Shown: piece by piece, positions 15,590-36,445 of the stretch
Numbering within the stretch: position 1 is the stretch's first letter
How the letters are laid out: every line of letters starts with the position of its first letter
Source: a virus
Length of the DNA: 41,324 nt
IMG/VR virus record: IMGVR_UViG_3300039308_000029
Span: 1-41,324 of that record
Strand: one strand, 5' to 3'
Notes under the pieces: generated by a model
What the model saw: the letters and a program-made list of their open reading frames with translations, nothing else
Databases searched by the model: none
Told to the model about the DNA's origin: nothing
Translations under genes and position numbers: made by a program

Positions 15590-15622
15590 AAAAAAAAGCC
15601 AGCCAGTGTTTAACCGGCTGGC
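15590..15622 (-). terminator. Intrinsic terminator directly after the major capsid gene
   Basis: On the minus strand GCCAGCC and GGCTGGC pair around an 11-base loop and are followed by TTTTTTTT. This is a strong terminator placed inside the morphogenesis operon, 23 bp after the capsid stop codon and before the next gene's ribosome-binding site. Confidence 0.85.
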
Positions 15623-15645
15623 TTCGGTTTCGTGATCGGCGGTAA

Positions 15646-16974
15646 TTACGCTGCCGGGGTCAGATCGCCCTTGACGAAGGCTTCCGGACGGTAGACCGCC
15701 AGCGCCAGACGCTCTTCGGCGAGGATGGTCACGAGGTTGTTGACGAAATCGTCCTCGTTTTCCGTTGCGATCGTCACGTTCGCCTGCTGGCGATCGAAGA
15801 CCTGCGCGCCGAGCTGGAACGCGCCGACCAGGAAGGTGTCGACGTCCATTGCCTGCGTCGGCACTACCGGGCGGCCCCACAGCATCGGCTGGGCGGTCTG
15901 CTGGGGGTTGGCGAAGATGTATCCGCCGGTCGAGTCCTTGGTGAGCTCGATTGCCGCCCAGTCGATCGGGTTCAGCGTGATGCCGGTCGACGGATATTCC
16001 GCCAGTTCAGCCTGCAGCAGCGCCAGGCGGAGCACGTCGATCCGGGTATTGCCGGTCAGGGCGATCGGTGCCGAGTAGGCGGTGGCCTGGGTATAGATGC
16101 CGTTCAGGTTGTTGCCGGCGCCGGAACCCTTGAGCAGCTGCGCTTCTTCAACCAGCGCCAGACCGTAGCGAAGCTTGACGTCGATGATCGACTGCAGCTG
16201 GGCGAAGTCGGACAGGATCTCGGTCGACGCCTTCATGAAGTGCGGGATCTTCACGACTGCCGCTTGCTTCAGATCGAAGGTGATGGACGACTGCGGCTTC
16301 TTAGTCGCTTCAGTGGTCGGCGCCGCGTTGTTCGTGAAGCCGGTCTCCTGCAGGAACTGGATCAGGTTCGAGCCGGTGGTGCCAGGAGAGATCAGGTCGC
16401 GGATGGTCAGGCGACGCTGCGGCAGCAGCTGCACGCCGGGGCGGCGATCCGGTGCAACACCATCGCCGGCGCTTGCCGCGGCGCTGGTGATGCTCTTGAT
16501 CGACACCGAGAAGCGGCGGTTCTTGCTGCCGGAGTCTACGAACTCCTTCAGGCCTTCGGCTTCGATGACCTGTTCGCCGAGACTCTTGGCGCGCTGGCCT
16601 TCGTCCCCGCCCTTGCGTGCGAACTTCTGCAGCGCATCCTGCAGTTGGACCTGCAGCTCGCCTTGCTTGACCAGCAGTTCGTCGACCTGCTGCTTCGTTT
16701 CCAGCGACAGCTTGCCGGCGTCGCCTGCTTCCTTCAGCGCCTTCTCGCCGGCCGATTTGACATCGTCGCCGATGCGCTTGAGCTCCCTGGCGATCGCCTC
16801 GGGATCCGTCAGCGTCACTTCGCCGGCGAAAGCCAGCATGCTGAGCCCAGCAAGTACGTCGGCATGCGGTGCGAGCAGCGCGCCCACATCCACGCCGGCC
16901 GCTTGGGCGCCGAGGGAGAACATTGCCAGTACGGCGAGGCCGACCAGCACGAAGGATTTACGTGTCAGTTTCAT
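15646..16974 (-). CDS. Major capsid protein, HK97 family, with signal-peptide-like N-terminus, 442 aa
   Basis: The C-terminal two thirds show the HK97 fold pattern: RRFSVSIKS, LTIRDLISPGTTGSNLIQFLQETGF, then IPHFMKASTEILSDFAQLQSIID, LRYGLALVEEAQLLKG, NPIDWAAIELTKDSTGGYIF, LWGRPVVPTQAM and FVNNLVTILAEERLALAVYRPEAFV. Residues 55-125 form a charged coiled-coil scaffold (delta) domain that the protease should remove. The first 26 residues, MKLTRKSFVLVGLAVLAMFS followed by LGAQAA, look like a Sec signal peptide with an AQA-A site. AAGGA stands at good spacing before this ATG, so the start is probably real. Capsid proteins are cytoplasmic, which makes this N-terminus odd. It would be lost with the delta domain on maturation. 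Confidence 0.92.
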   Translation of the reverse strand: MKLTRKSFVLVGLAVLAMFSLGAQAAGVDVGALLAPHADVLAGLSMLAFAGEVTLTDPEAIARELKRIGDDVKSAGEKALKEAGDAGKLSLETKQQVDELLVKQGELQVQLQDALQKFARKGGDEGQRAKSLGEQVIEAEGLKEFVDSGSKNRRFSVSIKSITSAAASAGDGVAPDRRPGVQLLPQRRLTIRDLISPGTTGSNLIQFLQETGFTNNAAPTTEATKKPQSSITFDLKQAAVVKIPHFMKASTEILSDFAQLQSIIDVKLRYGLALVEEAQLLKGSGAGNNLNGIYTQATAYSAPIALTGNTRIDVLRLALLQAELAEYPSTGITLNPIDWAAIELTKDSTGGYIFANPQQTAQPMLWGRPVVPTQAMDVDTFLVGAFQLGAQVFDRQQANVTIATENEDDFVNNLVTILAEERLALAVYRPEAFVKGDLTPAA

Positions 16975-16983
16975 GGTGAGTCC

Positions 16984-17670
16984 TTATTTCGAGTTGAGGT
17001 TGAAATTCCGCAGCGCGGAAAGTACGTCGCCTTTTTCGCCACCGGGCTCACCCCGGGAAAGCAGGTCTTTCAGACCGCGGCCGGCGATGGCCGTGGCCTG
17101 AGATTTCGAGAACCCTGACTCCCTCAGGAAGTCCTCAAATTCAGAGAGGGTCGGCAGCTTGCCGGCCTTGATGATCTGTTCCATCGACTTGACGCTGTCG
17201 ATCTGCGCCTGGTCGTTCGCTGGGAACGTGACGATGCTGATCTCGACCAGTTCAAGCTTCGTCAGGGTGCGGATGCGGTCCTTCTCGTTCCAGCTGTCCT
17301 CCAGGACGTAGTAACCGATGGACAGGCCCTTCACCACCCGGCGCTTCATCAGCGCGTAGGCCTCGGCTGCGCGCGGGATCTCATCCTTGAGCAGCCAACC
17401 GGCGACCTTGAGTCCGTGGGCATCCTCCTCGAGCTGGTCGAAGCCGCCGATCGGCTCGCCGGAGCGATGCTGCCAGAGTGCTGGCAGCGGATCGCCCGAG
17501 GACTTGATCGACTTCAGGCTGTCAGCGAACGCCCCGGGCGCCACGATCTCGCGGTAGCTGTCGACGTTGTCGAATACCGAGCCGTAGCCGGTGAAGGAGC
17601 CGTCGTCGTGCACAGCGTCCGCCTTGAAGGCGAACTGCTTGTGCTTCATCGCGATGTCTTTACGTTTCAT
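16984..17670 (-). CDS. Prohead protease, peptidase family S78 (HK97 gp4-like), 228 aa
   Basis: The herpesvirus-like serine protease fold is recognisable: FTGYGSVFDNVDSYREIVAPGAF, then WQHRSGEPIG with catalytic His68, KGLSIGY with nucleophile Ser117, and TKLELVEISIVTFPAN with the acidic third residue near 140. It removes the capsid delta domain and itself during head maturation. The start at 17670 overlaps the portal gene by 11 bp and is preceded by AAGGG. Met15 is an alternative. The C-terminal 70 residues (LSEFEDFLRESGFSKSQATAIA) are the usual self-cleaved tail. Confidence 0.92.
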   Translation of the reverse strand: MKRKDIAMKHKQFAFKADAVHDDGSFTGYGSVFDNVDSYREIVAPGAFADSLKSIKSSGDPLPALWQHRSGEPIGGFDQLEEDAHGLKVAGWLLKDEIPRAAEAYALMKRRVVKGLSIGYYVLEDSWNEKDRIRTLTKLELVEISIVTFPANDQAQIDSVKSMEQIIKAGKLPTLSEFEDFLRESGFSKSQATAIAGRGLKDLLSRGEPGGEKGDVLSALRNFNLNSK

Positions 17671-18961
17671 TGCTTGGGCCCTTCGGGTCATCCTGGGAAA
17701 GCCAGTGGAGCAGCGCAGCCTTTGCCGCGCCGGCGTCGGTGTGTTCGCCGAGCTTGTCGATCGGCAGCATGTTCGATTGGACGGTCAGGACCGCGCTGTT
17801 CCCGCCCTTGGGCGGCAGATTTTCGAGGCGGCGCACTTCGTCCCGAGTCATCAGGCCGTTCTGCACCATGATCGAGTAGAAGGCTGCGCGGGCGGCAGTG
17901 TCGGCGCGCAGCAGGCCCTCGATCGCGAACTCGGCAAAGTACTTCCGGCGCTCTACCGGCGTCAGAAGCGACTTGCGGATACCCTGCTCAATGCGTACGC
18001 ACCAGGTGCGCAGCGTCAGCATCAGGAAGCCGAGCATCTTCTGCTCGACGCCGGTACCCCAGTTGCTCTGCTTCTCGCCGTGGCCGATCAGCACCGGGTC
18101 GACGCGGAACCAACGGCACATCTCCTCGATATTGAACGCGCGGCTACCGAGCAGCTCGGCGTCCGCCGGCTTGAAGCTCAGCTGCTGGAAGCCGGCGCCC
18201 TTCTCCAGCACCATGACGCCGCCTTCCTTCGAAACCTTGTTGACGTGCTGCCGGATGTCCTCACGTTGTTTCGGCTGCAGCACCGAATCCATCGTCACGA
18301 GGCCGGGCGAGCGCATTGCGTCCTTGAACGTCTCGGCGCTGGCCTGGTCGGTCGCGATGGCGGTGCCGAACACGTTGGCGCCGTACTGCACGGGCGACAG
18401 ACCGATCATCCCGTTCGTGGTGAAGGCCGGGATATGCATCATGTCGCCTTCCGGGATCTCCCTCGCCTTCCCGTCCAGACCCCGGTACCGGTATTCGATG
18501 CTCCCGTCGGTCCGCCGCCGAACGCTCACGCTGTCGGGCATCAGGAAGTCGAGCGCGATGATCCGGTTTCCGACCCGGACGATCTCGCAGAAGGCGTTAC
18601 CCCAGAGGAGCATGGAACAGATCACCGCCTCCCAGAACACCACGGCCGTCATATCGGCGTTCGGCTGGTTGTGCAGGATCTCGTACAGTGGATGGTCGAC
18701 GGCCACCTTGCGCGCGCCGTCGGGCGAACGCTCGTAGAAGTTGATCGGCAAAGTCGACAGCGTCTCGGCGATCAGGCGCACGCACGCCCAAACAGTACTG
18801 AGCTGCAGCGCCGCGTCGACGGTCACAGTTTTGCCCGACCAGGATTTCGAGCCCAGCCACGAGGACCAGAACGCGCCATTGGTCAGCTCGATCGGCACCC
18901 CCAGCCACTTCAGGACGCTGGACTTGAGCCGTCCCGGGCTTTTTTGTTTGGTTTCGCTCAT
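17660..18961 (-). CDS. Portal protein, HK97 family, 433 aa
   Basis: It forms the dodecameric DNA channel at one capsid vertex. The family pattern is plain: VDAALQLSTVWACVRLIAETLSTLP near residues 48-75, HPLYEILHNQPNADMTAVVFWEAV, LLWGNAFCEIVR, then HIPAFTTNGMIGLSPVQYG and VMVLEKGAGFQQLSF, DAELLGSRAFNIEEMCRWFRVDP and WGTGVEQKMLGF. The length is normal. ATGA joins it to the terminase gene upstream. The C-terminus (DKLGEHTDAGAAKAALLHW) is variable. Confidence 0.95.
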   Translation of the reverse strand: MSETKQKSPGRLKSSVLKWLGVPIELTNGAFWSSWLGSKSWSGKTVTVDAALQLSTVWACVRLIAETLSTLPINFYERSPDGARKVAVDHPLYEILHNQPNADMTAVVFWEAVICSMLLWGNAFCEIVRVGNRIIALDFLMPDSVSVRRRTDGSIEYRYRGLDGKAREIPEGDMMHIPAFTTNGMIGLSPVQYGANVFGTAIATDQASAETFKDAMRSPGLVTMDSVLQPKQREDIRQHVNKVSKEGGVMVLEKGAGFQQLSFKPADAELLGSRAFNIEEMCRWFRVDPVLIGHGEKQSNWGTGVEQKMLGFLMLTLRTWCVRIEQGIRKSLLTPVERRKYFAEFAIEGLLRADTAARAAFYSIMVQNGLMTRDEVRRLENLPPKGGNSAVLTVQSNMLPIDKLGEHTDAGAAKAALLHWLSQDDPKGPSNET

Positions 18962-20631
18962 GCGATGATCGGATTCGAGAGAAAGTCGTCCAGGGAGCCC
19001 GCAGCTGCGGGGTTCAGTGCCATCAGGGATACGGCGTTGAATGTGGCCATCAGCGGGTCAATCTTCCCGGTGCCGCTGGCCTGCTTCGTGATCAGGATGG
19101 AGTTCGCACGCGGCTCTACCTTGGCATTACCCACGCACCAGTTCATCAGCGGCTGTCCACCATGCACAAGGACGCCTTCCGCGAGCTTCCGCTCGGTGGT
19201 CTTGATCGCGCCGCCTAGCTTCCACCCCTGCGAAATGCCCAGGAACTTGTCCTGCGGGATTTGCCGCTCGACCATGGCGTCCAGAATGCTTCCGATACCC
19301 GCCGGGTCCATGCCGATCTTGTCCAGCATCCCAGTCGCCTCGAGCCGCGCCACGATGTCCGCCACCTGCTCGACGTCGTCGCCGATCTTCTCGACGATGG
19401 TCAAGTCGCCATCCTTTTCGAAGTCCAGGAGCCGCTGAGCCTCACTTTTCCGGCGTTCCAGCACCATCTTGTGCGCCCAGGCGTGATTCCAGAGCAGCCA
19501 CTCCCGGGTTTCCCGGTCGCGTCCGACCGCTGCAAAGCCGAGCAAGTCGTCCAGACCGCCGCCGTCGATGCCTACGTCGATGACTTCGCTACGTTCAATC
19601 AGGTAGTCCAGCGTCACCAGCTTGCGGGCCTGCTGCTCCCAGAACAGCGCGCCAGCCCAGGCATCCGACCGGAGCGCGAGTCCGATCTCGACATTCAGGT
19701 GCTGCGAGGCCCAGGCGCGAAGCTCTTCCTCGCTGGTCGCCTCGGCCGTATGCATCTCCTCGACGAGGCGGTCGATAGTGATCGAGCGGCCAGCGTTCGG
19801 CGTCACCATGTGCCAGTGCGCCGGGTTCTTCCACTCGCCCTGCTTCTTCTGGATCTCCTCCGGAAGCTCGTACAAGACCGGCAGCATCGCGCCTTGCTGC
19901 CTGCCGTCCCGGATTGCCCGGGCCTTCATCAGCTCGGCCCGGAACACGCCTGCGGGCGCTTCCTCGCTCTGCGTGGTGATGAAAGCCATGAAGGCTTCCG
20001 GGTACGGCAGCATGCCGCCGCGCAGCTGCCGGATGGCGCTGGCCGCCTTGCTCATCTTGGCCACGACGTGCAGCTCATCGATGAGCGCGGCGACCGGTTT
20101 CTGTCCGGTCAGCGCCGCAGGGTCGAACGACATGATCTGCAGCTCGGCCTTCGTCTCCCGGTGGACGATGGTCTTCAGGTGCTCGCGGATGTGCAGTTTC
20201 TTCTCGAGCACCGGGTCGAGCCGGATCGCGCCTGCCGCGGCGTCGAATGCCAGCTGCGCGACGTCCTGCACGGGCGCCGTCATGATCAGCGAAGCATTCG
20301 GGCGCGCATTCAGCAGCAGCGCAGTCAGCATCAGCAGCGCGCCGTTCGTGGTCTTGCTGTTCTTCTTCGGCACCAGGAGGAACAATTCCCGGATGGCGCG
20401 GGCCCGGTTGACCGGATCAATGGAGCCAAACAGCGCACGGACCACGTCGCGGAACCAGTCGCCCCCGGCTTCGGCCAGCGTCGGCGTGCCGGGCACGTCC
20501 GCCAGGCGCAGCTTGTTGAAGATCGCTACCGCGCGATCGCCGCGCACGCGATCAATCGGCAGGTCAGGCACCAGCGAGCGGCCGGTGCGCAACCGCTCAG
20601 CCCAGTCAGGGCAGCTGAGGTCCCAGCTCAT
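18958..20631 (-). CDS. terL: Terminase large subunit, 557 aa
   Basis: This is the packaging motor and cos/pac nuclease. The Walker A-like motif LLVPKKNSKTT is at residues 85-95 and the Walker B motif VAALIDE at 180-186, with the catalytic Glu186. The C-terminal RNase H-like nuclease has acidic residues in VIDVGIDGGGLDDLLGF and DKIGMDPAGI. The layout is that of the HK97-type terminases (COG4626 group). The start ATG 20631 overlaps the small-subunit stop (ATGA). Confidence 0.95.
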   Translation of the reverse strand: MSWDLSCPDWAERLRTGRSLVPDLPIDRVRGDRAVAIFNKLRLADVPGTPTLAEAGGDWFRDVVRALFGSIDPVNRARAIRELFLLVPKKNSKTTNGALLMLTALLLNARPNASLIMTAPVQDVAQLAFDAAAGAIRLDPVLEKKLHIREHLKTIVHRETKAELQIMSFDPAALTGQKPVAALIDELHVVAKMSKAASAIRQLRGGMLPYPEAFMAFITTQSEEAPAGVFRAELMKARAIRDGRQQGAMLPVLYELPEEIQKKQGEWKNPAHWHMVTPNAGRSITIDRLVEEMHTAEATSEEELRAWASQHLNVEIGLALRSDAWAGALFWEQQARKLVTLDYLIERSEVIDVGIDGGGLDDLLGFAAVGRDRETREWLLWNHAWAHKMVLERRKSEAQRLLDFEKDGDLTIVEKIGDDVEQVADIVARLEATGMLDKIGMDPAGIGSILDAMVERQIPQDKFLGISQGWKLGGAIKTTERKLAEGVLVHGGQPLMNWCVGNAKVEPRANSILITKQASGTGKIDPLMATFNAVSLMALNPAAAGSLDDFLSNPIIA

Positions 20632-21017
20632 TGCATCCGCGCGCCGGGGCGCAGCAGGTCTTCCCACTCACTACCGACCTGGGCGGTCTGGGCATCGGCC
20701 TGCGCCTGCTCCTTCTTCCCGATCTTGGTCGGGGTGGCAGGCTTCTCCGGCGCCGGTGCGGTGATCGTAGGCGTCATCTGGATGTACGCCTTCTGAGCCG
20801 TGACGTTCCCGCCCTTGGCAGCCTTGAACATCGATTCCAGCACTTCCAGCCGCCGGGCGCACGCACCGGTCGAGAGCTCAGCGTCGAAGTGCTTGTTCAG
20901 GGTATTGCGCGAGATCCCGAGACCGAGGGCGATCTCCTCGTGCGACATGCCCGCACCAGCCGCCACGGCGACCTTGCGACGCATCGCAGCGGTCGGTTTG
21001 AACGGGGGACGTGCCAT
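20628..21017 (-). CDS. Terminase small subunit, 129 aa
   Basis: The N-terminal 50 residues hold a helix-turn-helix (MSHEEIALGLGISRNTLNKHF) that should recognise the packaging site. A helix (ARRLEVLESMFKAAKGGNVTAQKAYIQMT) follows for oligomerisation, and then a Pro/Ala/Lys linker and a C-terminal acidic helix (SEWEDLLRPG) that probably binds the large subunit. Gene order confirms the call. The upstream 238 bp are free of late genes and are the likely site of packaging initiation. Confidence 0.88.
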   Translation of the reverse strand: MARPPFKPTAAMRRKVAVAAGAGMSHEEIALGLGISRNTLNKHFDAELSTGACARRLEVLESMFKAAKGGNVTAQKAYIQMTPTITAPAPEKPATPTKIGKKEQAQADAQTAQVGSEWEDLLRPGARMQ

Positions 21018-28455: not shown

Positions 28456-28704
28456 CTAAGCCGTCGGCTTTGGATCGTCACGACGGCGGTTCTGCCCGGA
28501 CGGTGCCTCGCCGAAAACTTCTGGGTTCAACTCGTAACGGGTCACCTCGCCTGCAAATGCGTCTTCGATTGCGCGACAGCGCTCCGCCGGCGCGTATCCC
28601 TGAGCAACCCACTTTTGAACTGCCTGCGGCTTAACTTTCAAGATGCATCCGAGGGCAGTTTGGCTACCGGCTAGGCGAACCGCCTTTTGAATTCCTGTTT
28701 CCAT
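28456..28704 (-). CDS. Cro-like repressor (YdaS/Cro family), 82 aa
   Basis: It starts METGIQKAVRLAGSQTALGCILKVKPQAVQKWVAQGYAPAERC, the helix-turn-helix of YdaS/Cro-type proteins (residues 10-35), followed by RAIEDAFAGEVTRYELNPEVFG and a basic disordered tail. It is transcribed away from the CI-like gene, and three operator-like sites lie between the two. It should repress cI and, later, its own operon after induction. Confidence 0.87.
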   Translation of the reverse strand: METGIQKAVRLAGSQTALGCILKVKPQAVQKWVAQGYAPAERCRAIEDAFAGEVTRYELNPEVFGEAPSGQNRRRDDPKPTA

Positions 28705-28726
28705 GGTGGTCGGTTTTCGAGTTGCC

Positions 28727-28802
28727 TTACAACCGCAGGTTACAGCAAGGCAGGCCTTTCTACAACTTTCTTTTGCAGTGCGCGTTACAACCAATGCTTG
28801 TA
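28727..28802. promoter_or_regulatory. Right operator region: three operator-like sites and divergent promoters
   Basis: Three 17-18 bp sites share the pattern TRYAA-N(6-7)-GTTGTA read on the minus strand: 28727-28744 (plus strand TTACAACCGCAGGTTACA), 28760-28777 (CTACAACTTTCTTTTGCA) and 28785-28802 (TTACAACCAATGCTTGTA). The minus-strand promoter for cro has TTGTAG at 28760-28765 and TAACCT at 28737-28742, 17 bp apart, so two sites overlap it. The third overlaps a weak plus-strand -10 (TATTCT at 28801) for cI. This matches the logic of a lambdoid OR with three sites. Confidence 0.75.
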
Positions 28803-28813
28803 TTCTTGCGCGC

Positions 28814-29521
28814 ATGGAAACCATGGCTAACCGGATAGAGCAGGCACTGGCACAAAAGAACGGCGGAAATCAGTCCGAGATGGCTCGCTTCGTAGGCGTG
28901 TCTCCTCAGGCAGTACAGAAATGGGTTGCGGGAGACAGCGAGCCACGCGGAGCCAACTTGAAGCGCGCGGCAGAGTTCCTTGGCGTGTCGGAAGTGTTCC
29001 TGAAGTTCGGCCTTCAGCCGATGGCCGAGAAGACCGTGGTTCCTCAATCCATCCCCGGCGCCCGTCGCGTCATCGCGGTCGACGACGAGGAGGAGCATCC
29101 CGACCTAGTGCGGGTCCGGAAGGTGAAGTTACGTCTGTCGGCCGGCATCGCTGGTTTCGCCGTTGAGGATGAGATCGAGGACGACAACCCGATCAGCTTC
29201 CGTCGGAACTGGCTGGAGAAACGCGGATTCACCCGCGAGCAGCTTATTGCGTTGCCGGTGAAAGGCCAGAGCATGGAGCCTGGCCTGTATGACGGAGATA
29301 CCGTCGTGGTGAATACGGCGGACCGGAAGCCCCGGGACGGCGAGGTCTTCGCGGTCAACTATGAGGGCGAGGCCGTCATCAAGCGGATGGTGCGCGAGAT
29401 CGGCTTTTGGTGGCTAGTTTCGGACAATCCGGACCAGCGCCGCTACCCGCGGAAGCAGTGCACCGGCGACATGTGCCAGATCCTCGGGAAGGTCGTGCAC
29501 AAGCAGAGCGAGCATATCTGA
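28814..29521 (+). CDS. CI-like repressor, XRE plus S24 peptidase, 235 aa
   Basis: Residues 19-38 (NQSEMARFVGVSPQAVQKWV) are the helix-turn-helix. The hinge LSAGIAGF offers an Ala110-Gly111 cleavage site. The S24 fold has VKGQSMEPGLYDGD with nucleophile Ser153 and GEAVIKRM with Lys190. Spacing is close to lambda CI (111, 149, 192), so RecA-stimulated self-cleavage on DNA damage is expected. No ribosome-binding site precedes ATG 28814 and the likely transcription start is next to it, so a leaderless message is possible. ATG 28823 with GGA upstream is the alternative. The protein should maintain lysogeny. Confidence 0.93.
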   Translation: METMANRIEQALAQKNGGNQSEMARFVGVSPQAVQKWVAGDSEPRGANLKRAAEFLGVSEVFLKFGLQPMAEKTVVPQSIPGARRVIAVDDEEEHPDLVRVRKVKLRLSAGIAGFAVEDEIEDDNPISFRRNWLEKRGFTREQLIALPVKGQSMEPGLYDGDTVVVNTADRKPRDGEVFAVNYEGEAVIKRMVREIGFWWLVSDNPDQRRYPRKQCTGDMCQILGKVVHKQSEHI

Positions 29522-30486: not shown

Positions 30487-31590
30487 ATGTTCAATCCGCT
30501 TCGACTAAGTCTGGCGCGGCGGCGAAGAAAGCTCACAAAAAAAGCACTCGCCGAAGCGGTAGGCTTCGATCAGAAAACCGTCATCCGTTACGAAGCCGGT
30601 GAGGTTGAACCTCCTGCGGACAGTATTGCTGCCCTCTCAGCAGCCCTCGATTTTCCTGAGTCTTTTTTCTTTGGCACGGACGTCGACGAACCACAAGCTG
30701 AAGCGGCCAGTTTTAGATCGCTCAGCTCGATGTCTGCGCGTGATCGCGATGGTGCTCTTGCTGCCGGCGCCTTCGCCTTTCTATTGAGTGACTGGGTGGA
30801 CGAACGGTTTAAGTTACCTATCCAGGATCTTTTGGACTGCAAGGAAGATTCCGATCCTGAAGCGGCAGCTCGTATGTTGCGGCAAAAGTGGGGGTTGGGA
30901 GAGCGGCCGGTTAGAAACATGGTGCACCTACTTGAATCAAAAGGGGTGCGAGTGTTCTCGCTCGCTGAGAACACTCAAACCGTGGATGCCTTTTCAATGT
31001 GGCGTAACAACACGCCATATGTATTTCTCAATACGTTTAAGACTGCAGAAAGAAGTCGGTTCGATGCAGCCCATGAGCTAGGCCACTTAGTGTTACATAA
31101 ACATGGTGGCCCACAAGGGGGGCGCATCGCGGAGGACCAGGCGAATCAGTTCGCATCTGCTTTCCTCATGCCCGAGGCGGAAGTGCGAGCGAAGCTTCCG
31201 CGTATCGGCTCTCTCTCGGAAATCGTTGAAGCAAAGCGTTACTGGCGAGTGTCCGTCGCAGCTCTGAACTATCGCCTGCACAAGTTGGGTATTACAACGG
31301 ATTGGCAGTACCGAAACTTCTGCATTCAAATTGCTGAGCGATTTCGGAAATCAGAACCTTATGGAATTGAACGCGAGGAATCGATTGTCTGGGAAAAAGT
31401 ATTGGCGGATCTAAGGTCTACGGGCACCACAAAACGACATATTGCCAGCGATATTGGCCTTCCAGTTACGGAAATTGAGAATCTTCTATTCCGTCTCACA
31501 AACATGCAGACCTTGAGTGGGAAAGGAACCGGAAGCGGGCAGAGCCGAGCGAAACTATCGCTCGTGCAAGACGATGACTTGGCAGCATAA
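30487..31590 (+). CDS. XRE regulator fused to ImmA/IrrE metallopeptidase, 367 aa
   Basis: Residues 5-60 are a helix-turn-helix (LARRRRKLTKKALAEAVGFDQKTVIRYE). Residues 130-270 are the ImmA/IrrE (PF06114) domain with FDAAHELGHLVLH, the HExxH zinc motif at 196-200, and Glu216 in AEDQANQFASAFLMP as probable third ligand. Such proteins act as antitoxins or repressors and some destroy a partner by proteolysis. The C-terminal 90 residues are helical with a second possible helix-turn-helix (RHIASDIGLPVTEIENLLF). It follows the 218-residue gene in one operon under the palindromic promoter. Its codon use is less GC-rich than the phage core. Confidence 0.88.
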   Translation: MFNPLRLSLARRRRKLTKKALAEAVGFDQKTVIRYEAGEVEPPADSIAALSAALDFPESFFFGTDVDEPQAEAASFRSLSSMSARDRDGALAAGAFAFLLSDWVDERFKLPIQDLLDCKEDSDPEAAARMLRQKWGLGERPVRNMVHLLESKGVRVFSLAENTQTVDAFSMWRNNTPYVFLNTFKTAERSRFDAAHELGHLVLHKHGGPQGGRIAEDQANQFASAFLMPEAEVRAKLPRIGSLSEIVEAKRYWRVSVAALNYRLHKLGITTDWQYRNFCIQIAERFRKSEPYGIEREESIVWEKVLADLRSTGTTKRHIASDIGLPVTEIENLLFRLTNMQTLSGKGTGSGQSRAKLSLVQDDDLAA

Positions 31591-33788: not shown

Positions 33789-34727
33789 ATGGAAGGCACT
33801 GAAGTAATGAACGTCGAGAGCAGCACGATTTCGCTACTCAACAAGTCCGAGATCGATCAGCAGATCGCCACCGCTCACAAGTACCCGCGCTCGATCAAGC
33901 GCTTCCGTGACGAGACGCTGTCCATGGTCACCCTGAACGAGAACGTAGCGCAGGAGTGCATCTACGCCCTGCCCCGCGGCGACAAGACGATCGAGGGCCC
34001 CAGCGCACGCTTCGCCGAGGTGGTGGCATCCGCCTGGGGCAACAGCCGCGCCGGCGCCCGGGTGGTCAATGACCAGGGCGATTTCGTCACCGCTCAGGGC
34101 GTTTTCCATGATCTGGAGCGGAACGTTGCCATCACCTACGAGGTGCAGCGCCGCATCACCGACCGTCAGGGCCGCCGCTTCAATGCCGACATGATCGGCG
34201 TCACCGCGAATGCAGCCTGCTCGATCGCGCTGCGCAACGCCATCCTGAAGGGTGTGCCGAAGGCCTTCTGGTCCGACATGTACGAGCAGGCCCGGGAGAC
34301 GGCCATCGGCAACGTGCAGACGCTGGCCAACCGCCGTGCGCGCGCTATCGCCGTACTGCAGAAGTACGGCGTGAAGCCGCAGCAGATTTTCGACTTCCTC
34401 GGTATCAAGGGCGAGGAAGACATCACTCTCGAGCATCTGACCACCCTCTTCGGCATCACGACCGCTCTCAAGGAAGGCGATACCACGCCAGAACAGGCTT
34501 TCGCGCCGGCAGCCGCCGCGGTGGTAACGACTGGCGGCGACGGAAAGAAGCAGCTGCCGACCTGCAGCGCCGAGGACTTCGAGAAGAAGAAGGCCGGCTG
34601 GAAGAAGGCAATCGAGGGCGGCAAGCCGGTGAACGACCTGGTCGCCATGATCCAGTCAAAGGAGCTGCTGACCGACGAGCAGAAGATGGAAATCGCCTCC
34701 TGGGCGCCGGCAGTGGGAGGTCAATGA
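33789..34727 (+). CDS. Candidate single-strand annealing protein, 312 aa
   Basis: TGGAG stands before ATG 33789; Met7 (33807) is an alternative. The conserved stretch SEIDQQIATAHKYPRSIKRF, EECIYALPRG-like (QECIYALPRGDKTIEGPSARFAEVV), SAWGNSRAGARVV, NVAITYEVQRRITDRQGRRF and MIGVTANAACSIALRNAILKGVPK occurs in phage proteins always encoded before a YqaJ exonuclease. By that pairing I infer the recombinase half of a Red-like system. I cannot match it to RecT, Erf or Beta by motif, so it may be a separate annealing family. The C-terminal 90 residues are a flexible linker and a small helical domain (FEKKKAGWKKAIEGG). Confidence 0.7.
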   Translation: MEGTEVMNVESSTISLLNKSEIDQQIATAHKYPRSIKRFRDETLSMVTLNENVAQECIYALPRGDKTIEGPSARFAEVVASAWGNSRAGARVVNDQGDFVTAQGVFHDLERNVAITYEVQRRITDRQGRRFNADMIGVTANAACSIALRNAILKGVPKAFWSDMYEQARETAIGNVQTLANRRARAIAVLQKYGVKPQQIFDFLGIKGEEDITLEHLTTLFGITTALKEGDTTPEQAFAPAAAAVVTTGGDGKKQLPTCSAEDFEKKKAGWKKAIEGGKPVNDLVAMIQSKELLTDEQKMEIASWAPAVGGQ

Positions 34728-36445
34728 TGCAGATCCACGACCTTATCCAAGGCTCCCCCGAGTGGGACCAGTTCCGCCTGCAGCACTTCGGCGCCAGCGA
34801 GGCGGCCGCCATGCTCGGCCTGTCCAAGAAGGTAAAGCGCTCCGAGCTGCTGCACATGAAGCACACCGGCAACCCGAAGGAGTTCAGCCGCTGGGTGCAG
34901 GAGAACATCCTCGACTACGGCCACGAGGTCGAAGCGCTGGCGCGGCCGATGGTCGAGCAGCTGATCGGCGAAGACCTGTATCCGGTCACCTGCTCTGACG
35001 GCGGGATGCTGTCGGCGTCCTGCGACGGCCTGACGCTTGCCGGCGACATCGCTTTCGAGCACAAACAGTGGAACGAGGAACTGGCCGCCGCGGTGCGCGC
35101 TGGCCAGCTGCCCGAAGACCACATGCCGCAGTACCAGCAGATCCTGCTGGTCACCGGCGCCGGGAAGGTTATCTTCGTCGTCTCGGACGGCACGCCCGAC
35201 CGAATGGTGCATATGGAGGTTTTCCCGGACCTCGGCTGGCATGCGCGCATCGTCGCCGGCTGGGCGCAGTTCAAGCAGGATCTGGAAACGTACGTGCCGC
35301 CCGCGGTGACCGTAGAAGCCGTCGGCCGCACTCCGGAATCGCTGCCGGCGCTGCGCATCGAGGTCACCGGCATGGTCACCGCGAGCAATCTCGACCTGTT
35401 CAAGGAACATGCGATCGCCGTCTTCGGCGGGATCAACCGCGAGCTCAAGACCGACCAGGACTTCGCGGACGCCGAGAAGGCCGTGAAATGGTGCGGCGAC
35501 GTCGAGGACCGGCTGAAGGCCGCAAAGCAGCACGCGCTCAGCCAGACCGAGAGCATCGATGCCCTCTTCCGCGCCATCGACGAGATCAGCGCCGAGGCTC
35601 GCTCCACCAGGTTGGAACTGGACCGGCTGGTGAAAGCACGGAAGGAGCAGATCCGCGCCGAGATCCTGAAGGAAGGTGTCGACGGCCTCGCCGCCCACCT
35701 TGCCGGCCTGAATACCCGTCTCGGCAAGCCGTACATGCCGGCAGTACCGGCCGACTTCGCTGGCGCCATGAAGGGAAAGAAGACGGTCGCCAGCCTGCGC
35801 GACGCGGTCAGCACCACCCTGGCCAACGCGAAGATCGAGGCGAACGCCATCGCCGACCGGATTGACGCCAACCTGAAGACGCTGCGCGAGCAGGCCAAGG
35901 ATCACGCGTTCCTCTTCGCCGACACCGCGCAGCTCGTACTCAAGGCGCCCGACGACTGCCAAGCCGTGATTACCGCGCGCATCAGCGAGCACAAGGCAGC
36001 GGAGGAAAAGCGCCTGGAAGCGGAGCGCCAGCGCATCGCCGATGAAGAGCGCCAGAAAGCTGAAGCGATGGTGCGCGCCGAGCAGGAAGCAGCCGCCGCG
36101 GAAGAGCGGCGCCGCCGGGAGGAGGCCGCCGCGCGCCAGCCGCAGGCGCCGGAACCGGAATACCGGCCCACGCTGCCGCTGGCCGAGGTGCGGCATGCGG
36201 CTGCCCCGGCCGAACTCGCACAGGCCATCGCGCCGCGCACCCCGTCCCTGCGCCTCGGCCAGATCAACGAACGGCTCGGTTTCACGATCACCGCTGACTT
36301 CCTGTCCAGCCTCGGCTTCCCGCCGGCGGCCACCGACAAGAGCGCGAAGCTGTACCACGAGGCCGACTTCACCCGCATCTGCTCGGCGATCGCCCAGCAC
36401 ACCATCGGCGCTGGCAGCCGCTTCGCCGCTCAACTCGCAGCCTAA
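34724..36445 (+). CDS. YqaJ-type exonuclease fused to a coiled-coil domain, 573 aa
   Basis: Residues 1-190 are the lambda-exonuclease fold: IQGSPEWDQFRLQHFGASEAAAML, GHEVE (Glu70), SASCDG (Asp101), FEHKQ (Glu112 and Lys114) and MPQYQQILL (Gln136). It should digest one strand of double-stranded ends and load the annealing protein. Residues 210-330 resemble the DUF1351-type helical domain (ELKTDQDFADAEKAVKWCGDVEDRLKAAKQHAL). Residues 420-480 are a long charged helix (EERQKAEAMVRAEQEAAAAEERRRREEAA). A C-terminal domain has SLRLGQINERLGFTITADFLSSLGF. YqaJ proteins are often near 200-350 residues, so this is a fusion. Confidence 0.9.
   Translation: MMQIHDLIQGSPEWDQFRLQHFGASEAAAMLGLSKKVKRSELLHMKHTGNPKEFSRWVQENILDYGHEVEALARPMVEQLIGEDLYPVTCSDGGMLSASCDGLTLAGDIAFEHKQWNEELAAAVRAGQLPEDHMPQYQQILLVTGAGKVIFVVSDGTPDRMVHMEVFPDLGWHARIVAGWAQFKQDLETYVPPAVTVEAVGRTPESLPALRIEVTGMVTASNLDLFKEHAIAVFGGINRELKTDQDFADAEKAVKWCGDVEDRLKAAKQHALSQTESIDALFRAIDEISAEARSTRLELDRLVKARKEQIRAEILKEGVDGLAAHLAGLNTRLGKPYMPAVPADFAGAMKGKKTVASLRDAVSTTLANAKIEANAIADRIDANLKTLREQAKDHAFLFADTAQLVLKAPDDCQAVITARISEHKAAEEKRLEAERQRIADEERQKAEAMVRAEQEAAAAEERRRREEAAARQPQAPEPEYRPTLPLAEVRHAAAPAELAQAIAPRTPSLRLGQINERLGFTITADFLSSLGFPPAATDKSAKLYHEADFTRICSAIAQHTIGAGSRFAAQLAA

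Follow-up and report, generated by a model that had tools for sequence, protein, structure and literature searches.

A signal-peptide-like, exchangeable N-terminal cassette on the HK97-type major capsid protein of a temperate phage

The major capsid protein (MCP) encoded in the window, i.e., the whole 41,324-nucleotide stretch of viral DNA analysed here (IMG/VR record IMGVR_UViG_3300039308_000029), begins with a segment whose sequence features (net charge +3, KD12 2.89, AQA before A26) are those of a Sec signal peptide. Computational comparison with its relatives shows that such extensions are exchangeable N-terminal cassettes, gained, lost and swapped independently of the shell. This exchangeable signal-like cassette is a new variation on the HK97 MCP family, and it is kept by selection, probably for docking or organising the immature shell and not for secretion of the MCP.

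The protein itself clearly belongs to the HK97 MCP family, with a PF05065 shell, an N-terminal coiled-coil scaffold domain in the AlphaFold2 (AF2) model and an adjacent S78 protease gene (Table 1). The reading frame described in the earlier note was recovered by ORF analysis and lies on the minus strand, running from 16974 to 15646, a strand that the note had left out. The packaging and head module has the order TerS-like protein, TerL, portal, S78 protease and MCP, followed by connectors and tail genes. HK97 gp5 and the D3-type MCPs (PF05065) have the same order of portal, S78 protease and MCP, and have the coiled-coil delta domain and the HK97 shell in common with the MCP of the window. Directly after the MCP stop codon there is a strong intrinsic-terminator-like hairpin with a T8 run (15595-15625, minus strand), and this T-run abuts the ribosome site of the next gene. 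Comparable hairpins follow the MCP gene in 24 of 188 relatives versus 2 in a control interval; the hairpin may step down the expression of the connector genes. The phage is temperate. A CI-like repressor (phrog_4; 28703-29521, plus strand) and an HTH plus metallopeptidase-like protein (phrog_2439, partial phrog_87; 30487-31590, plus strand), the latter a regulator, fit this lifestyle; a RecE-like recombination exonuclease is also encoded (phrog_7655, E 9.7e-198; 34724-36445, plus strand).

Table 1. Features of the MCP gene and the neighbouring head module, in coordinates of the window
Feature	Position	Strand	Basis
MCP gene, 442 aa: N-terminal cassette, delta (scaffold) domain and HK97-fold shell	15646..16974	-	ORF; PF05065 E 1.6e-56; phrog_10 major head protein
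Signal-peptide-like helix 1, residues 1-25, MKLTRKSFVLVGLAVLAMFSLGAQA; predicted signal-peptidase-I-type site A25/A26	16900..16974	-	KD12 2.89, net +3 n-region, A.A motif
Second hydrophobic stretch, residues 38-51, ADVLAGLSMLAFAG	16822..16863	-	KD12 2.01, summed transfer score ~3.1
Internal ATG, Met46	16837..16839	-	Weak ribosome site, SD -2.4 kcal/mol
Delta (scaffold) domain, about residues 55-160; coiled-coil helices 58-86 and 91-121	16495..16812	-	AF2 model; aligns with N-terminal region of HK97-type MCPs
HK97-fold shell domain, residues 170-437	15664..16467	-	Pfam PF05065 E 1.6e-56; solved homologues 9osb, 9lbm, 3qpr, 1ohg
Shine-Dalgarno (SD) TAAGGA, over the stop codon of the protease gene	16981..16986	-	Sequence; anti-SD duplex -5.9 kcal/mol
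Prohead serine protease (Peptidase_S78)	16984..17691	-	PF04586 E 8.4e-40
Portal protein	17660..18961	-	PF04860 E 3.8e-97
Terminase large subunit	18958..20667	-	PF03354, PF20441

As to the anatomy of the N-terminus, the basic residues K2, R5 and K6 are followed by a hydrophobic core (F8-L21) and by A23-Q24-A25 before A26; the basic start, core and AQA before Ala reported in the earlier note are thus all present. The signal-like helix is followed by a second hydrophobic stretch (residues 38-51), which that note had overlooked and which is unconvincing as a transmembrane span on a crude scale; in MCPs with such a pair of stretches the loop between them is almost always free of K and R. The AF2 model, built on 36 aligned relatives, places helices at residues 3-25 and 38-49 of the extension at pLDDT below 50, and the delta helices 58-86 and 91-121 ahead of a shell of mostly good confidence. 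The segment does precede the delta domain, as had been proposed: extension, delta-type coiled coil and shell follow each other in this order. The likeness to signal peptides was quantified with a position matrix trained on 37 signal peptides of E. coli K-12, picked by gene names and products; the calibration set comprised six 50-kb pieces, and scoring was leave-one-out. The MCP of the window scores 15.1, which places it at the 81st percentile of the true signal peptides and above all 47 inner-membrane and all 59 cytosolic controls, so that the description of the segment as signal-peptide-like is borne out.

The extension appears to be translated from its own start. TAAGGA stands 6 nt upstream of the MCP ATG, in agreement with the good ribosome-binding site noticed earlier (-5.9 kcal/mol), and SD strength at the start site is equal in MCPs with and without an extension. 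The internal Met is residue 46, not 47 as previously counted, and it is unlikely to be the main start. An internal start yielding a cytosolic isoform was rejected, given the weak ribosome site of Met46 and the lack of enrichment of good internal ATGs in long-type genes (4 of 32 have one within codons 25-70, versus 19 of 113 cassette-less MCPs). In ten pairs the dN/dS of the extension is 0.08-0.43, similar to that of the delta domain; this amounts to purifying selection, and therefore the extension is translated and matters. The hydrophobic pattern persists across sequences less than 30% identical. As regards the suggestion of a harmless extension, the dN/dS values disfavour neutrality, yet very close relatives do without the segment. 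Since these phages are near-identical, the cassette is not essential in all backgrounds.

The relatives came from 453 loci, whose 445 MCP genes include 194 that are distinct at 90% identity. Hydrophobic N-terminal extensions of some kind are present in 73 of the 194, with a bimodal distribution, a proportion that is biased upward, as are the others from these loci, because the locus sets were gathered with extension-bearing queries. N-terminal hydrophobicity over 12 residues reaches at least 2.4 in 35 of the 194 MCPs versus 2 of 567 other genes of the same loci. When about 1000 genomes of four host families were searched with the full-length MCP, the values were at least 1.6 in 28 of 80 MCPs and at least 2.4 in 13 of the 80. 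Many relatives begin at the delta domain. In the comparison with homologous capsid proteins, put forward in the earlier note as a check, the segment is present in many and missing in some.

Two types of extension can be distinguished: long ones, consisting of a signal-like helix and a second stretch, and short ones, with a single hydrophobic stretch followed by motifs. The matrix places 30 of 34 long-type, 19 of 38 short-type and 2 of 113 extension-less MCPs above the best cytosolic control. Among the 35 strongly hydrophobic cases the n-region is net positive in 34, and A-x-A follows the core in 27 versus 17.5±2.3 expected by shuffling (maximum 25 in 2000 shuffles), a comparison that overstates independence because the 35 MCPs are mutually related. 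In the short types the A-x-A site is often missing. Their recurrent motifs (ERxxGRYMR..GH, GPRIxFDKPDD or GRKDGG, e.g., in L187, L223 and L066) run from basic to acidic and might be recognised by a protease or a partner. In several long types the second part looks like an entire short type (L220 and L374 compared with L223 and L187), as though the front of N-termini of the short kind had gained or lost a signal-like helix. Hydrophobic or amphipathic basic N-termini, e.g., MTHHNRYFTRAAAALLASGAAIHRKDD, were also seen on the distant MCPs L492, L478, L486, L525 and L526, from betaproteobacterial and alphaproteobacterial genomes, whose shells are 31-45% identical; this suggests that such N-termini reach past the clade of the window's MCP. 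In one further relative (L521, 577 aa) the MCP frame is apparently fused to an N-terminal S78-like prohead protease domain (METKAIKLEVKELAETGEFSGYASVFG...).

The independence of cassette and shell is best seen in close relatives. Three MCPs whose shells are 99.7% identical over the last 330 residues have a long extension (L273), a short one (L252) and none (L269). Between the latter two the extension is a clean indel of ~38 codons, starting at codon 4-5 of the MCP gene, and the DNA is 93-94% identical over about 2 kb on each side, which makes an obligatory, co-varying partner gene in the immediate vicinity unlikely. The L252 cassette was found again in L250, a contig from another metagenome, and an assembly chimera was accordingly rejected as the source of the swapped N-termini. 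In another pair one MCP has a long extension (L294) and the other none (L295), while the remainder is ~84% identical. Conversely, a cassette like that of the window (..GIAQALGFDV..) stands on a shell only 31% identical (L492). Extension identity correlates with shell identity at r 0.41 versus 0.76 for the delta domain. On the shell tree (FastTree, 185 tips) presence and absence require 43 changes, versus a mean of 57 and a minimum of 48 after shuffling; to some extent, then, presence is inherited, and it is often turned over. As for the origin of the cassettes, searches of Pfam and PHROG with ten extension peptides at E up to 10 yielded no relevant match and none to a coat family, inoviral ones included; an origin by capture, be it from inoviral coat proteins or from other known families, was rejected on these grounds, there being no relevant phage match either.

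Comparison with known systems helps to delimit the possible functions. The D3 MCP is ~54% identical to that of the window (a close homologue has been solved, 9osb) and begins right at the charged delta domain, whereas the window's MCP has about 52 more residues ahead of it. Mesorhizobium phage vB_MseS-P1 (PP232116) has an MCP that is 52% identical and bears a comparable hydrophobic N-terminal extension, itself only ~26% identical to that of the window. This phage is infectious, and its MCP was found among the virion proteins by mass spectrometry (PMC11409702); the text of that paper makes no mention of a signal peptide. Since its virions contain an MCP of the signal-bearing type, wholesale export is excluded, and the worry of the earlier note that an exported capsid protein would be misplaced is answered in general terms. 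The precursor of M13 pVIII (procoat) is a functional comparison only: it likewise has a signal peptide, a short K/R-free loop and a second hydrophobic segment, but differs in fold, virion and assembly, and in the window a weak second segment is followed by a 390-residue cytoplasmic capsid domain. T4 gp40, acting with the gp20 portal, would share a prohead start at the inner membrane (PMC3185693), docking being a proposal in our case; the T4 chaperone is a protein of its own and acts on the portal, whereas in our case the MCP carries the hydrophobic part. Our search of the open-access literature found no description of signal-peptide-like N-termini on HK97-type MCPs.

We tentatively prefer, judging from sequence features, the reading in which the first ~52 residues, as an exchangeable cassette at the tip of the MCP scaffold (delta) domain, would serve in membrane docking. 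It is favoured because the MCP N-terminus follows signal-peptide grammar, beyond mere hydrophobicity. The signal-like helix would engage the inner membrane during MCP synthesis, by insertion of the SRP/YidC type, while the second stretch, together with fast folding or assembly, would prevent the delta and shell domains from leaving the cytoplasm; prohead assembly in its early phase would thus be docked or concentrated at the inner membrane. The cassette would then be removed, either at A25/A26 or with the whole delta domain once the prohead protease fires, so that mature capsids would lack it. In HK97, scaffold residues 2-66 build trimeric towers that surround the portal; elsewhere they point inward, and the scaffold N-termini are digested by the protease before maturation (PMC10275583). 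By this geometry and digestion the cassette should be at the scaffold tip and should vanish with the scaffold; its removal together with the delta domain is the natural expectation by analogy, and the prohead serine protease of the window is expected to accomplish it. Several points argue against docking. As a transmembrane segment the second stretch is poor in most cases (summed score 5.5 on average), L297 and L028 alone being convincing, and a two-helix membrane hairpin was rejected as a general rule, this stretch being usually too polar. The absence of the cassette from near-identical phages, and of the A-x-A site from many short types, also counts against it. The inward-pointing scaffold N-termini (PMC10275583) face the wrong way for anchoring a shell from outside, and according to a 2011 review prohead-membrane association was undemonstrated outside T4 (PMC3185693).

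The same geometry agrees better with a role away from membranes, in which the hydrophobic helices would cluster in the prohead interior, at the delta tower tips, strengthen scaffold-scaffold or scaffold-portal contacts and be digested with delta. The HK97 scaffold N-termini are inside, near the portal (PMC10275583); the cassette is joined directly to the delta coiled coil in the AF2 model; and short-type cassettes, hydrophobic as they are, have basic residues at either end and in this differ from a transmembrane segment. We nevertheless consider such an internal scaffold core, the main rival of docking, somewhat less probable, as it leaves the positive n-region, the A-x-A enrichment and a score above those of inner-membrane proteins unexplained, and SRP/Sec should encounter an N-terminus of this kind while it is being translated. 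If turnover is taken as the main feature, the cassette might alter the visibility of the scaffold to host defences or capsid-hijacking satellites, or tune assembly to the host. The fast replacement on a constant shell (three N-termini on 99.7% identical shells), the weak dependence of extension identity on the shell, the patchiness on the shell tree and the similar motifs on the 31%-identical shell of L492 would all suit this, but most cassettes have the same physical design, which pure escape would not demand, and we hold this explanation to be unlikely. Genuine export of a fraction of the MCP, with a minor pool secreted or cleaved and the rest folding before targeting and assembling, would account for the complete signal-peptide design including the A-x-A site; it is more improbable still, as exported MCP has no apparent function, a fast-folding, abundant protein that jams Sec would be costly, and the MCP is present in the virions of vB_MseS-P1 (PMC11409702). 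Finally, an annotation artefact or neutral leader, with the true start at Met46 or the delta domain and the upstream frame open by accident, could appeal to the delta-domain starts of many relatives, but the SD contrast between the long start and Met46, the dN/dS of the extension and the conserved hydrophobic pattern largely refute it, and a non-translated or neutral leader is disfavoured as well, leaving this reading the least credible by far.

To return to docking, its broadest form would be that a group of HK97-type temperate siphophages of alpha- and betaproteobacteria start their capsids on the inner membrane via a cleavable, procoat-like signal hairpin of the MCP, traded as cassettes independently of the shell. 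This generalisation seems to us rather unlikely to hold in full.

For annotation, the finding means that secretome predictions for prophages may label such capsid proteins as exported. The question of function is directly testable, as L252 and L269 form a near-isogenic natural pair that differs in the presence of the cassette. In the textbook view, HK97 assembly is cytosolic and its scaffold domain has a fixed role; a selected and often swapped export-signal-like cassette on this domain suggests either that assembly docked at a membrane occurs in phages other than T4 or that the scaffold has a second function which has gone unrecognised.
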